From assembly GCF_036013525.1 (NCBI RefSeq), contig NZ_CP107853.1:9486001-9550000 (forward strand): DNA of 64,000 nucleotides, given 5' to 3'. The notes below the pieces were generated by a model. It saw only the letters and a list, made by a program, of their open reading frames with translations. It was not told the DNA's origin and did not search any database. Position 1 is the stretch's first letter. Every line of letters begins with the position of its first letter. Below are positions 18,585 through 23,167 of this stretch, piece by piece. A program made the position numbers and the translations under genes. This DNA is from Nonomuraea sp. NBC_00507 (lineage in GTDB: Bacteria > Actinomycetota > Actinomycetes > Streptosporangiales > Streptosporangiaceae).

Positions 18585-19502
18585 TCACGGTGCCGCGCGT
18601 TCCTCGGCGAGGTGGAGGCCGGCCTCGATCACGGCGTTCATGATGGGGGCCAGGCGCGCCTGGCCCAGCGAGGGCGCCCGCAGGGCCATCCGCGCCACCA
18701 GGGCACGTTCCCTGGCCATGTCCCGCCCCGCGAACCCGCCGACCGGCTTGATGCGTTGCACGATGCCCGCCAGGGCGGCGCGCTGCTCGAGGAGGGTCGC
18801 CAGGGCGGCGTCCACGCGGTCGATCGCCGCACGGCACTCCGGCACCGTGGCGGGCGCCTCCGGGCGCAGCAGCGCGCCGACGACGGTCACGGCCTCTTCC
18901 GCCACGCGCAGGGCCGCCAGCGGGTCCGCCGCCGATTCGGGACCCGCGCTGTCGATGATCAGGCCGTCGGCGCCGGCCGCCACCGCGGCCGCCGACAGCC
19001 CGAGGTCCCCGGAGACGTCGGCGAGGACGGGCCGGCCCGAGATCATCCGGGCCGCTCGCATCAGGCCCAGGTCGGGCCATCTGCCCACGGCCTGGCCGGG
19101 CCGGCCCGTCGGACTGTGTCGCCGAGCTCCTTCGCAGAGGATCACCCGCCCGTCGCCCTCACTCGCGCAGTAGTCGGCCAGACCCAGCCATTCCTCCACC
19201 GGCGCCGACGGCCGCCGCTCGACCACCACCGGCAGCCCGAGCCCGGCCGCCGCGCGCACCAGCGGGATGTCGCGCGTCCACGAGGCCCCCACCACCACGG
19301 CGTCCGCCAGCTCGGCGATCGCCGGCAAATCGGCCGCCGAGTGCGGCTCCGCCAGCGTGACCCGATCACGCAACACCTCGTAGGCGTCCGCCCGCCCGCC
19401 ATGAGCCCGCAGGCTCACCCTGCTGCCGATCATCACGGCGGGCCCGTCGCCCACGAGCAGGTCTCCGACGGCGACCGCGTGCCGTTCCAACGTCGATGAC
19501 AT
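18585..19502 (-). CDS. Degenerate DAHP synthase-like domain fused to AroQ chorismate mutase
   Basis: A 305-residue two-part protein. The C-terminal 90 residues are an AroQ chorismate mutase (chorismate to prephenate, for Phe and Tyr). The expected active-site residues are visible: Arg in CRAAIDRVDAAL, Arg in LLEQRAALAG, Lys in QRIKPVGG, Asp, Arg and Glu in GRDMARER. The N-terminal 210 residues align with the second half of type I-beta DAHP synthases (APVEEWLGLADY, EGDGRVILCEG, AAGADGLIID). However, the KPRTSPY region is absent, GARNMQ is GASWTR and DPSH is DVSG, so DAHP synthesis is unlikely. The ATG at 19502 has a GGTGGAG site. An attenuator-like leader precedes it. Confidence 0.78.
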   Translation of the reverse strand: MSSTLERHAVAVGDLLVGDGPAVMIGSRVSLRAHGGRADAYEVLRDRVTLAEPHSAADLPAIAELADAVVVGASWTRDIPLVRAAAGLGLPVVVERRPSAPVEEWLGLADYCASEGDGRVILCEGARRHSPTGRPGQAVGRWPDLGLMRAARMISGRPVLADVSGDLGLSAAAVAAGADGLIIDSAGPESAADPLAALRVAEEAVTVVGALLRPEAPATVPECRAAIDRVDAALATLLEQRAALAGIVQRIKPVGGFAGRDMARERALVARMALRAPSLGQARLAPIMNAVIEAGLHLAEERAAP

Positions 19503-19550
19503 TCTTGACTCCACCTTCGGGCCGGCTCCCTGAAGCCGGCGGGGAAAACC

Positions 19551-19579
19551 AAAAAGGCAGAGACGGGCGTCTCTGCCTT
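19551..19579 (-). terminator. Intrinsic terminator upstream of the chorismate mutase gene (attenuator)
   Basis: On the minus strand a perfect 12-bp stem (19554-19565 with 19568-19579, loop of 2) is followed by five T. It lies between a short leader ORF and the coding start, in the promoter region of divergent genes, so it cannot be the end of another gene. A second 7-bp stem (GCCGGCT/AGCCGGC, 19521-19540) lies just before the ribosome site. Confidence 0.75.
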
Positions 19580-19599
19580 GTGCCGACTCCAGGTGGTCG

Positions 19600-19656
19600 C
19601 TAGCCGCCGACCGGCCCTCCCGGAGCCGGCTCGGTAAACGCGTAGCGACAAGTCAT
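19600..19656 (-). CDS. Leader peptide of the chorismate mutase attenuator
   Basis: An 18-codon ORF, MTCRYAFTEPAPGGPVGG. It contains neighbouring Tyr (TAC) and Phe (TTT) codons; TTT is rare in such a GC-rich genome. It ends 20 nt before the terminator stem. Bases in its Cys-Arg-Tyr codons (GTCGCTA) can pair with TAGCGAC at its stop codon, a possible competing hairpin. The ATG follows TAGGGT by 6 nt and has no Shine-Dalgarno, so it probably begins a leaderless transcript. Ribosome stalling at Tyr or Phe codons could prevent terminator formation and raise expression of the downstream aromatic gene. The peptide itself is not one I recognise. Confidence 0.6.
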   Translation of the reverse strand: MTCRYAFTEPAPGGPVGG

Positions 19657-19662
19657 ATTCAG

Positions 19663-19668
19663 ACCCTA
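19663..19668 (-). promoter_or_regulatory. Candidate -10 element for the leader transcript
   Basis: TAGGGT, fitting TANNNT, lies 6 nt before the leader ATG at 19656. No strong -35 is visible. Confidence 0.4.
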
Positions 19669-19789
19669 CCCCACCCCTCCACCTGCTGGACGCTCGTTCT
19701 CACATGGCGGACTGACCTTCCGGCGAGTCGCCGTTGATCCCTCGCTATGGGAGTATTTCTTGGCCTAGAGGGAGGGTTTGAGGCCGTTG

Positions 19790-21595
19790 ATGTCGGATCG
19801 GAAGCAGGACGGACGTCGCATCGCCGGCCGCTACCAGCTGCAGGAACCCATCGGCAGGGGCGGGATGGGCATCGTCTGGCGCGCCCACGACGAGCTCCTT
19901 GACCGCACCGTCGCCGTCAAGGAGGTCAGATACGCGGCCGCCTTGGGCGAGGAAGTGCAGCTCCTGAACCGGCGCACGATGCGCGAGGCGAGGGCGGCGG
20001 CCAGATTCGAGCATCCGAACGTGATCGTCGTGCACGACGTGATCGAGGAGGACGGCCGTCCCTGGATCGTCATGCAGCTCGTCCAGTCGCGGTCGCTGGG
20101 CGCCGTGATCAAGCAGGACGGGCCGCTGCCGCACAAGCGGGTGGCCGAGATCGGCCTGGCGGTGCTGGACGCCCTGCACCGCGCCCACGAGGCCGGCGTG
20201 CTGCACCGTGACGTCAAGCCGGAAAACGTGCTCCTGGCCGACGACGGCAGGGTCGTGCTCACCGACTTCGGCATCGCCACCTTGGAGACCGAGACGCAGC
20301 TGACCGTGACGGGGCTGGCGGGCACGCCGGCGTTCATCGCGCCCGAGCGGCTCAAGGGCCTGCCCGCGCGGCGCGAGTCGGACCTGTGGTCGCTGGGCGC
20401 CACGCTGTACACGGCCGTGGAGGGCCGCTCGCCGCACGAGCGGGGCATGGCCCTGGCGACCATGCACGCCGTGCTGACCGACGAGCCGGATCCCGCACGG
20501 AACGCCGGCCCGCTGACCGAGGTGATCAGCGGGTTGCTGTGCAAGGAGCCAGTGCAGCGGCTCACGCACGAGGAGGCGACGCGCCTGCTGCGCGGGGCCA
20601 TCGCGCAGTCGAGCCCGCCGCCGACCGCGCCGTTCCCCGCGGCTCAGCACCTGGAGGTGCCGACTGCGGCCAAGCCGCGTAAGGCGGCCGTCCCGGCCAA
20701 GCCGCGCAAACAGCCCTACCAGTCCCCCTCGCGCCAGGAACCGGCCGAGGACGACACCCCGACCGATCCCAACCTCGCCCCTGCCCCGGCGGCCGTGCCC
20801 GAGACCGGCGCGCGGCTCACCCCGGGGACCGCGGAGCCGAAGCCGCCCGCCGTGTCCACGGTCGAAGCGGTCCGGCCCGACCCGCGTCGCCCCGGACCGA
20901 TCATCGCGGCGGCCGTGGCGGTCGTGCTCGTCGCCGGCGTGGGCGGCTACCTCGGCCTGCGCTCGGCTCCCGAGGACAGCACGCCGGACCCCGGCAGGTC
21001 GCAGCAGGCCGCCCCGGTCACCGCGACTGCCTCGCAGGCCTCGCCGGACGCGTCCCAGCCGCCTTCGACGGCGCCGTCCGCGTCGCCGAGCCCCTCCGCC
21101 ACCGCCAGTCCCAGCCCGAGCCCCAGTCCGACCAAGGCGGCCGACCCGCTGCCCGCCGGCTGGAAGATGTACAAGGACAAGAAGATGGGTTTCTCCATCG
21201 GGCTGCCCAAGGGCTGGGACGTGTTGACCCGCGGCGGCATGCAGGTCAAGTTCAGGGGCCCGGGGGCGGCGCCGAACGCGTACCTCATGATCGAGGAGGC
21301 CGCGAACCCGGGGACGGACCCGTACAAGGACTGGAAGAAGCAGGAACCCTCACTCAAGAACAACTTCGGCGGCTATAAGTTGCTCGACATCAAGAAGGTC
21401 GACTACATGAAGGCGGCCGCCGACTGGGACTTCACCTGGAACACCAACACCGGCAAGACCCGCGTGCGCAACCGGGGCTTCGTCACCGACAACGGGCGGG
21501 CCTACGCCATCTACTGGCACACGCTGAACAGCCACTGGAAGGACGACTACCACCTCTTCGAGGGGTTCACCGCGACGTTCGTCCCGGCCAAGTAA
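19790..21595 (+). CDS. Membrane Ser/Thr protein kinase (PknB family) with extracytoplasmic domain
   Basis: A receptor-type kinase of 601 residues. The kinase domain (about 15-275) has the glycine loop GRGGMGIVW, Lys44 in VAVKEV, HRDVKPEN with catalytic Asp141, DFG at 159-161, and an APE motif. A Pro/Ala-rich linker leads to one membrane helix at about 368-388, then a Ser/Pro-rich spacer and an outer domain at 454-601 beginning LPAGWKMY. That domain is not PASTA, and an equivalent is found in the next kinase. ATG at 19790 with GAGG 6 nt upstream; a TTG at 19778 is less likely. Probably a sensor of wall or envelope state; ligand unknown. Confidence 0.9.
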   Translation: MSDRKQDGRRIAGRYQLQEPIGRGGMGIVWRAHDELLDRTVAVKEVRYAAALGEEVQLLNRRTMREARAAARFEHPNVIVVHDVIEEDGRPWIVMQLVQSRSLGAVIKQDGPLPHKRVAEIGLAVLDALHRAHEAGVLHRDVKPENVLLADDGRVVLTDFGIATLETETQLTVTGLAGTPAFIAPERLKGLPARRESDLWSLGATLYTAVEGRSPHERGMALATMHAVLTDEPDPARNAGPLTEVISGLLCKEPVQRLTHEEATRLLRGAIAQSSPPPTAPFPAAQHLEVPTAAKPRKAAVPAKPRKQPYQSPSRQEPAEDDTPTDPNLAPAPAAVPETGARLTPGTAEPKPPAVSTVEAVRPDPRRPGPIIAAAVAVVLVAGVGGYLGLRSAPEDSTPDPGRSQQAAPVTATASQASPDASQPPSTAPSASPSPSATASPSPSPSPTKAADPLPAGWKMYKDKKMGFSIGLPKGWDVLTRGGMQVKFRGPGAAPNAYLMIEEAANPGTDPYKDWKKQEPSLKNNFGGYKLLDIKKVDYMKAAADWDFTWNTNTGKTRVRNRGFVTDNGRAYAIYWHTLNSHWKDDYHLFEGFTATFVPAK

Positions 21596-21598
21596 ACT
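21593..21598 (+). promoter_or_regulatory. Candidate -10 element for the second kinase, overlapping a stop codon
   Basis: TAAACT includes the TAA stop of the first kinase and stands 6 nt before the GTG of the second. It fits TANNNT, and no Shine-Dalgarno is present, so the second kinase may have its own leaderless mRNA. Confidence 0.4.
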
Positions 21599-21604
21599 TT
21601 CGAC

Positions 21605-23167
21605 GTGCAGGTCAGCAACCGCTACAGGCTCATCGAGCCGCTCGGAGAAGGCGGCATGGGCGTGGTCTGGCGTGCCTACGACGAGCTGCTCGACCGCACG
21701 GTGGCGATCAAGGAGGTCCGCTACGCGGGCGTCGGCGAGGCCAAGCGGGCCGAGCTCAATCGCCGGACCATCAGGGAGGCCAGGGCGGCGGGCCGCCTCG
21801 ACCACCCCTCGGTGGTCGTCATCCACGACGTCGTGGAGCAGGACGGCCGCCCGTGGATCGTCATGCAGCTCGTCCGCTCCCGCTCGCTGGCGCAGGTGGT
21901 GCGCGAGGAGGGTCCGCTGCGGCCCGGGCAGGTCGCGATGGTCGGCGGCCGGGTGCTGGACGCCCTGCGGGCCGCGCACGCCACCGGGGTGCTGCACCGC
22001 GACGTGAAGCCGGAAAACGTGCTCCTGGCCGATGACGGCAGGGTCGTGCTGACCGACTTCGGCATCGCCTCGCTGGAGGCGGAGGCCGGGCTGACCGCGA
22101 GCGGCGGGCTGGTGGGCACGCCCGCCTACATGCCGCCCGAGCGGCTCAACGGCGAGCCGGCCAGGCCGGAGTCCGATCTGTGGTCGCTGGGTGCGACGTT
22201 GTACGCGGCGGTCGAGGGCGAGCCGCCGTTCAAGCGTGACTCGTGGGCGGCGACGGTCGCGGCGGTGCTGCGGGACGAGCCCGAGCCGCCGGCGAGGGGC
22301 GGGACGCTCACACCGGTGATCATGGGGTTGCTGCGCCGGGACCCGGGCAGGCGGATGCCGGCCGAGGAGGCCGCCCGGCTGCTGCACGAGGCGGCGATCA
22401 ACGCCCCCGGCGACCCGCGCCAGGCGACGGCCATGCAGGGGATGCGCCCGGCGCCCGCCGGCGGCCCGGTGCACCCGACGAGCGAGGCCCAGGCATACCC
22501 GACCGCGGGCGAGCGGCCGGCGGCCGTCCGGGAGCGGTCTCGCCGCGGCAGGACGCTGTGGGTCACGCTGCCCGCCGTGGCGGTGGCGGTCGCCGTGGGC
22601 ACGGGCGGCACGCTGCTCTACACCAGCAGGACGACCCCGACCCCCACCCCGACCCCGACGGCCGCTCCCTCCACGAGCACGTCAGGCCCGGCGCCCACGC
22701 CCGCCCAGACGCTGCCGGCCGGATGGCGGACGTTCACCAGCCCGGCCGGCCGGTTCTCGATCGCGATACCCGAGGGGTGGCGGGCCACGAAACACCCCAC
22801 CAGGGACAGCATCTCCTTCAAGGGGCCCGGCTCCCCGGGGATGATGATCGTGGAGTGGACCACCCCCGAGGTTTCCTGGAAGAGCCCGGAGCAGGCCTGG
22901 CTCGCCCTGGAGAAGGAGATCCTGGCCAAGGGCGAGTTCCAGGGATACACCCGCATCGGCATCACCCTGCTGCGCTACCGCGGCCGCGCGGCCGCGGACT
23001 GGGAGTTCACCCGGATCCGCGACAAGCAGCTGATCCACGTGATCAACCGCGGCTTCCACACCGCCGACGGCCGGCCCTTCGCGCTGTACTGGGATACCAC
23101 GGACGCCCGCTGGGCCCAGGACAAGCACTACTTCACCAAGTTCGCGAGGACCTTCAAATCGCTGTGA
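21605..23167 (+). CDS. Membrane Ser/Thr protein kinase (PknB family), paralogue of the preceding one
   Basis: A 520-residue kinase closely similar to its neighbour, probably a tandem duplicate. Kinase motifs: GEGGMGVVW, VAIKEV, HRDVKPEN, TDFGIA, PPE in place of APE. A membrane helix lies at about 318-338. After a Thr/Pro-rich spacer comes the same outer domain from about residue 370 (LPAGWRTFTSPAGRFSIAIPEGW, shown here in pieces: LPAGWRTF and FSIAIPEGW), ending FARTFKSL. The GTG at 21605 begins 9 nt after the first kinase stop and 6 nt after a TAAACT box. Its TGA overlaps the GTG of the araC-type gene by 4 nt, coupling the kinase to a transcription factor. Confidence 0.9.
   Translation: MQVSNRYRLIEPLGEGGMGVVWRAYDELLDRTVAIKEVRYAGVGEAKRAELNRRTIREARAAGRLDHPSVVVIHDVVEQDGRPWIVMQLVRSRSLAQVVREEGPLRPGQVAMVGGRVLDALRAAHATGVLHRDVKPENVLLADDGRVVLTDFGIASLEAEAGLTASGGLVGTPAYMPPERLNGEPARPESDLWSLGATLYAAVEGEPPFKRDSWAATVAAVLRDEPEPPARGGTLTPVIMGLLRRDPGRRMPAEEAARLLHEAAINAPGDPRQATAMQGMRPAPAGGPVHPTSEAQAYPTAGERPAAVRERSRRGRTLWVTLPAVAVAVAVGTGGTLLYTSRTTPTPTPTPTAAPSTSTSGPAPTPAQTLPAGWRTFTSPAGRFSIAIPEGWRATKHPTRDSISFKGPGSPGMMIVEWTTPEVSWKSPEQAWLALEKEILAKGEFQGYTRIGITLLRYRGRAAADWEFTRIRDKQLIHVINRGFHTADGRPFALYWDTTDARWAQDKHYFTKFARTFKSL

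Follow-up and report, generated by a model that had tools for sequence, protein, structure and literature searches.

A short reading frame, a terminator-like hairpin and a chorismate mutase (CM) gene follow one another on the minus strand of the window (the whole stretch of 64,000 nucleotides from Nonomuraea sp. NBC_00507 that we analyzed), which raises the question of whether the frame encodes a leader peptide that controls the gene, in response to which amino acid and through which RNA step. An earlier note, made from the DNA letters, had proposed a Tyr/Phe attenuator in which ribosome stalling allows read-through. Having compared the element across genomes, we consider it likely that a leader-peptide switch senses charged tRNA-Phe, with Tyr codons helping, and controls the CM gene, and that class-I DAHP synthase genes are under the control of relatives with Trp, Tyr and Phe codons. 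The element is very probably an amino-acid-sensing switch, with a final step unlike that of a textbook attenuator.

The leader locus and its gene

The leader open reading frame (ORF; 19600..19656, minus strand, as for all leader features below) comprises 18 codons, from an ATG at 19656 to a TAG stop at 19602-19600, and encodes MTCRYAFTEPAPGGPVGG. Its start codon lies 6 nt downstream of a -10-like hexamer, TAGGGT (19663..19668), and it is followed by a hairpin with a U-run and then by the CM gene (18585..19502, minus strand, start ATG 19502-19500), an arrangement described in the earlier note and confirmed here on the minus strand. Codon 7 (19636..19638), a UUU for Phe, is the candidate control codon, and codon 5 (19642..19644), a UAC for Tyr, is a secondary one. 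Downstream of these come segment A (GCCGGCUCCGGG, 19619..19630), which can pair with segment D (CCUGGAGUCGGC, 19582..19593) over 12 bp or, through its inner part, with segment B (19608..19617) over 7 bp; segment C (CGACC, 19595..19599), which can pair with GGUCG, the 3' part of B; the terminator-like hairpin E (19551..19579, with the hairpin at 19579-19554 and the U-run reaching 19551); segment F (GCCGGCUUCAGG, 19529..19540), complementary to D and its alternative partner; segment G (GAGCCGGC, 19521..19528), a partner of F directly before the ribosome site; and a Shine-Dalgarno region, GGUGGAG (19509..19515). Hairpin E thus lies between D and F, and the ATG of the gene is about 50 nt downstream of it.

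A scan for intrinsic terminators over 19000-20200 returned hairpin E as the single site, with 0.3 expected in shuffles, and counted 11 pairs in a stem that had been read before as a perfect 12 bp. The hairpin had also been assigned to the leader, and this holds: the other neighbor gene starts on the plus strand, so hairpin E terminates no other gene. On that side, at 19778-23167 (+) and divergent from the leader, are two adjacent genes in tandem that we take, by motif, to encode serine/threonine protein kinases.

The product of the downstream gene combines a partial DAHP-synthase-like domain (PF00793, 19358-18948) with a C-terminal type II CM domain (CM_2, PF01817, 18836-18618) and is 97% identical to a protein of Nonomuraea sp. 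G32, the closest named record. The profile match of the DAHP-synthase-like half (18948-19358, minus strand) starts late, near position 90 of the profile. In an alignment with solved enzymes a Glu replaces the Lys of LLKRG and a Gly replaces the His of DPSH/DVTH, two residues important for DAHP synthase function. Because of these replacements and of the late start of the match, this half looks catalytically dead, and it may be a regulatory partner of the CM domain. In other leader-bearing loci it was mainly the CM domain of the query that matched downstream (L174, L176, L178, L180, L182, L184, L186 and L187, among others, and the further relatives L145, L149-L152, L157-L160 and L164-L166), and the fused form is kept in, for example, L177, L188 and L190. 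The matches confined mainly to the CM domain suggest that the leader remained linked to the CM gene when domains were fused or split.

Conservation, spread and codon content

We scanned named genomes for relatives of the downstream protein and found 89, of which 80 were kept, the more distant ones being other DAHP synthases. Within the genus of the window the protein had a match in 53 of 54 genomes and was merely weakly matched in G003, G015 and G051. From 58 distinct upstream regions we built an alignment of 55 leaders, leaving out L023 and L045, which are degenerate, and L004, which is the same as L001 in the stretch concerned; L006 and L033 were placed by hand. The alignment has 133 columns with a mean column identity of 76% and long invariant stretches, and its named genera belong to Streptosporangiaceae. 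Lost or damaged leaders amounted to 2 of 57 distinct CM leaders (L023 and L045). Upstream of the CM gene in L023 (2652-2938, Streptosporangium amethystogenes) we observed two partial copies of the element, as if an insertion had split the leader.

A covariance model built from the 55 leaders found one clear copy in the genome of the window. Within the order it matched 215 of 345 genomes, in 41 of 70 genera, counts that include some sister leaders and a few chance matches. The matches L168, L171 and L172 were rejected as leaders because they look like chance, have no leader and have unrelated neighbors. The same model matched 53 of 394 genomes sampled across the class, and a second model matched 47 of 249 genomes sampled from another order, where all 11 loci read, of 12 returned, held a DAHP synthase gene with an aromatic leader. 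Five genomes of the genus of the window (G006, G013, G017, G043 and G047) carry one leader before each of the two genes, CM and DAHP synthase, and outside the order G487 has one leader before a DAHP synthase gene and another before a confirmed CM gene (L224/L225). Two leaders of the DAHP synthase and CM kinds were also observed outside the order at L226/L227 (G543) and L229/L230 (G496), the CM gene being confirmed for G487 only. Across the whole window, none of the Rfam families (including leader families, T-box and riboswitches) matched at gathering score, and relaxing the threshold to an E-value of 10 gave seven chance-like matches, each of them to a family of microRNAs or long non-coding RNAs. 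The leader observation is far from chance, and, going by sequence comparison, the leader and its relatives precede CM or DAHP synthase genes in many actinomycetes.

Several features indicate that the ORF behaves as a coding unit, its translation being deduced from conservation. It starts with ATG in 53 and with GTG in 2 of the 55 leaders, and the start lies 18 nt from the control Phe in 45 leaders and 21 nt from it in the other 10, so that the spacing is always a multiple of three. From the Phe codon to the motif GCCGG there are exactly 5 nt in 55/55. A stop codon falls between segments A and D in 55/55, in a frame and at a position that vary; in three DAHP-synthase leaders (L195, L198 and L202) the frame extends past the usual stop. 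All 56 leaders that could be located (L023 and L045 could not) have a TANNNT hexamer whose 3' end is 6-8 nt ahead of the start codon, compared with 2.5% in shuffles. Because of this short distance, transcription probably starts at or beside the leader's own start codon, and the mRNA is probably leaderless. Several leader peptides of Streptomyces lividans have been reported to be leaderless (PMC8079986).

The codon content points to the signal. The control position encodes Phe in 55/55 leaders, as UUU in 53 and UUC in 2; the segments of the CM genes taken from these loci have no UUU and 89 UUC. A Tyr codon stands between codon 2 and the control Phe in 43/55, and in 9/55 the control position and the codons ahead of it include a single aromatic (Phe/Tyr) codon. 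The earlier note had named Tyr and Phe as control codons and had tied its reading to conservation of the ORF or its aromatic codons in relatives: the leader survived that comparison, with Phe invariant and Tyr not conserved. Trp is absent between codon 2 and the control codon in all CM-type leaders (0/55 in the alignment and 0/43 in a wider divergent set, 0/98 together; in the wider set, L144 and L185 at least repeat the aligned rows L034 and L028, and the gene is unconfirmed as CM for L227, where the contig ends, and for L230).

Sister leaders precede class-I DAHP synthase genes, and Trp was read in 26 of 36 of them, a count that is one too low, L211 having been misframed (its true leader is VSRWYWRF); the reading also missed the Phe of L182, ending at Tyr. 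Aromatic runs in the DAHP-synthase leaders include WYWRF, FWRY, YWRF, RYPWF, RYPYF and similar ones, and the order of residues differs between lineages while the set remains aromatic. Their control codon is UAU and not UUU in 14/36 by automatic reading. Codons therefore track the pathway branch: CM leaders carry Phe/Tyr, and DAHP-synthase leaders carry the full aromatic set or, in some lineages, Tyr and Phe. No other observation, in our view, argues as strongly for charged-tRNA sensing. The sequence GUUUA is conserved beyond the Phe codon itself, invariant except for the two UUC, a hint of RNA constraint as well.

The conserved fold and the search for an antiterminator

The conserved fold consists of A:D (12 bp) around B:C (5 bp), followed by hairpin E, and A:D encloses the leader stop codon. 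In the 55 leaders, A:D, B:C and E together were 99.6% paired with 5 pairs changed on both sides, and 0 of 500 column shuffles were as good on any measure, relatedness being uncontrolled in this comparison. B:C was 100% paired in 54 distinct rows. The alternative A:B (7 bp) was also 100% paired, with one-sided changes only, and was no better than shuffles. Hairpin E has 10 pairs in the alignment, 99.6% paired and 3 with two-sided changes; it is kept in 55/55 leaders and is followed by at least three T in 54/55 and at least four T in 50/55. Among divergent members U-runs are short in many and absent in L169. Other lineages hold the same fold in different sequence, for example GCCGGUUCGGAC with GUCCGAACCGGC in L146. 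Comparison thus establishes the ORF and its codons, A:D, B:C and E as conserved features, together with D-F complementarity in several lineages. The pairing of GTCGCTA with TAGCGAC, put forward before, occurs in 25/55 and so lacks support as a core feature. Just after E in L223, L224, L226, L240 and L241 we observed GAGACGGGC, which is complementary to the 3' arm of E and could form a further alternative pairing.

We searched for an antiterminator competing with E. We folded the alignment with A blocked, the state expected when a ribosome stalls on the Phe codon. The 5' arm of E then paired with its own 3' arm, and with that 3' arm also removed it found a partner of at most 3 bp. In 104 elements the best upstream duplex of the 5' arm was weaker than in shuffles (mean -11.2 vs -12.3 kcal/mol); it was stronger than E in 5/104 (among them L054, where E was misread) and within 5 kcal/mol of it in 15. 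A conserved antiterminator was rejected on both grounds. Since no conserved sequence competes with E, stalling has no visible way of preventing termination. Of the features of a classical attenuator, the leader has an ORF with end-product codons, a fixed codon-to-A distance and a stop inside the structure and, as a feature of the sequence only, an intrinsic terminator that precedes the gene; what is missing is an antiterminator that would use one of the terminator's strands. We do not class the element as a classical attenuator because this defining part was tested and not found.

The other conserved alternative to A:D, in several lineages, is D:F. Against dinucleotide shuffles, the fraction as good as D:F had a median of 0.00 and a mean of 0.04 in the CM set (54 rows, with L020, L024, L089 and L096 skipped) and a median of 0.02 in 20 DAHP-synthase leaders. 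The pairing was weaker in 8 outlying CM leaders (median 0.07, 4 at or below 0.05) and in 14 class-level DAHP-synthase leaders (median 0.07, 6 at or below 0.05), and it did not exceed shuffles in 18 putatively Thermomonosporaceae-like elements (median 0.28) or in 8 further CM elements (median 0.23), the segment D of divergent elements being miscut in some rows and lacking in two. D:F was 98.7% paired in 33 Nonomuraea rows, where none of its pairs changed on both sides and it did not outperform column shuffles. F could owe its conservation to F:G rather than to D:F; the fold of the whole spacer, F:G included, was no better than shuffles (median fraction 0.28).

In folding predictions, the openness of the ribosome site was 0.26, rising to 0.41 once D was made available, with a gain above 0.1 in 29/55 leaders and a drop in 1; a scrambled D likewise raised it in 17/55. 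The gain was 0.153, compared with 0.035 with a shuffled spacer, and was larger in 35/55. Unconstrained folding of whole leaders, in which the ribosome site is poorly placed, gave 0.40 to 0.47, with 23/54 up and 9 down, and the 20 DAHP-synthase leaders showed no opening of the site (0.55 to 0.51). The predicted effect is modest. That D:F leads to more expression through an opened ribosome site is our proposal for the last step of the switch, one that we consider less likely than not.

Proposed action, rival readings and known systems

When Phe-tRNA is scarce, a ribosome would slow at the rare UUU codon and, given the fixed 5 nt from UUU to A, would cover segment A. A:D would then be blocked, leaving D available to F beyond hairpin E. 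With plentiful Phe, the ribosome would reach the stop codon in the A-D loop and depart and A:D would close, upon which hairpin E would terminate a share of the transcripts and F would remain available for folding with G and the ribosome site. Both stalling at the control codon and termination at E are steps that we infer. Extended to the actinomycete aromatic leaders as a whole (before CM and DAHP synthase genes, in several orders), our tentative proposal is that, with no antiterminator, a stall frees D to pair with F across E and so couples partial termination with control of translation; we put it forward as a possibility more than as an expectation. Of the earlier claim that stalling gives read-through, the attenuator-like sensing end stands, and the outcome does not fit a conserved antiterminator, the conserved alternatives being A:D and, in several lineages, D:F. 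The earlier reading is in this sense partly supported, right on the kind of element, largely right on the signal and wrong on the helper pairing.

Attenuation at E itself, with stalling lowering termination by a route invisible to secondary-structure prediction, is a reading that we hold possible, if short of probable. The hairpin is kept throughout the 55 leaders with at least three T behind it in 54, there is no other gene there for it to end, and a model of the trpE attenuator of S. venezuelae was reported to be Trp-tRNA-dependent only if RNA triplexes were allowed (PMC4833913). A triplex, a pseudoknot, a contact of NusG or of the ribosome with RNA polymerase, or a disturbance of E by unpaired D are each conceivable as the route; the low complementarity of the 5' arm to upstream RNA relative to shuffles (-11.2 vs -12.3 kcal/mol, 104 elements) and the short U-runs of many divergent members, down to none in L169, tell against this reading. 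Somewhat unlikely, in our view, is purely translational control in which E would be a constitutive partial terminator or a bridge and the choice between A:D and D:F would set F:G and access to the ribosome site: D:F in both CM and DAHP-synthase leaders and the gain over shuffled spacers in 35/55 (0.153 vs 0.035) speak for it, but the effect is small and is absent in the DAHP-synthase set.

A further reading, that the element is a folded RNA to which a ligand or protein binds, with the ORF incidental, would suit its high conservation and the near-invariant GUUUA. We judge it improbable: the leaders preserve the start codon, the frame, the position of the stop and the aromatic codons specific to each branch, 14/36 sister leaders (automatic reading) have UAU in place of UUU as control codon, and no Rfam family matches. 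A repeated DNA operator, suggested by the palindrome GAGCCGGCTC, half of which is common to A, D, F and G, is more improbable still, as the paired segments co-vary elsewhere (GGUUCG with CGAACC in L146 and L155; also L056).

In the pheA and trp leaders of enterobacteria, control codons lie beside the first RNA segment, the stop lies inside the structure, a terminator precedes the gene and an antiterminator shares a strand with that terminator. The CM leader resembles these attenuators in codon-to-segment placement, in the stop within the structure and in the terminator before the gene, and differs from them in having no conserved antiterminator. In translational attenuators of the erm type, a stalled ribosome frees one strand and the new pairing may open a ribosome site. 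The likeness here is that the freed strand would pair with the next and might open the ribosome site; unlike in the erm type, the switch would respond to the charging of tRNA, and the two strands are separated by a terminator-like hairpin.

Among actinomycetes, the aroR leader of C. glutamicum (Phe-Tyr-Phe), which precedes aroF, is reported to respond to limitation of Phe and not of Tyr (PMC11802643, which also mentions pheL and trpL, and PMC4046766), and it is elsewhere called a translational regulator responding to both Phe and Tyr (PMC7356990). Both it and the CM leader are actinomycete leader peptides with aromatic codons before an aromatic-pathway gene, and a response to Phe and not Tyr fits Phe as the invariant codon of CM leaders; unlike the CM leader, aroR precedes a DAHP synthase gene, and the likeness is one of function. 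Seliverstov et al. (2005) described actinobacterial leaders (trp, ilvB, cys and leuA), many without some components of an attenuator; in the available text, structures are reported as conserved for ileS and for the Trp, Cys and Leu genes, and genes of other amino-acid pathways had none in front of them (PMC1262725). As far as that text goes, the CM leader is like these in being a leader peptide with a part of the attenuator missing. In the literature searched by title and abstract opening, which covered few subscription papers, we found no leader peptide before an actinobacterial CM gene, nor is one mentioned in the available text of PMC1173090 or PMC2965389.

The leader family suggests that a large group of actinomycetes regulates both the Phe/Tyr branch and entry into the shikimate pathway at the RNA level, by sensing tRNA, with the codon content of aromatic leaders tuned to the pathway branch. 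It makes testable a puzzle from the actinobacterial literature, that of attenuator-like leaders without some of their parts, and its many natural variants make it suited to working out how such leaders function.
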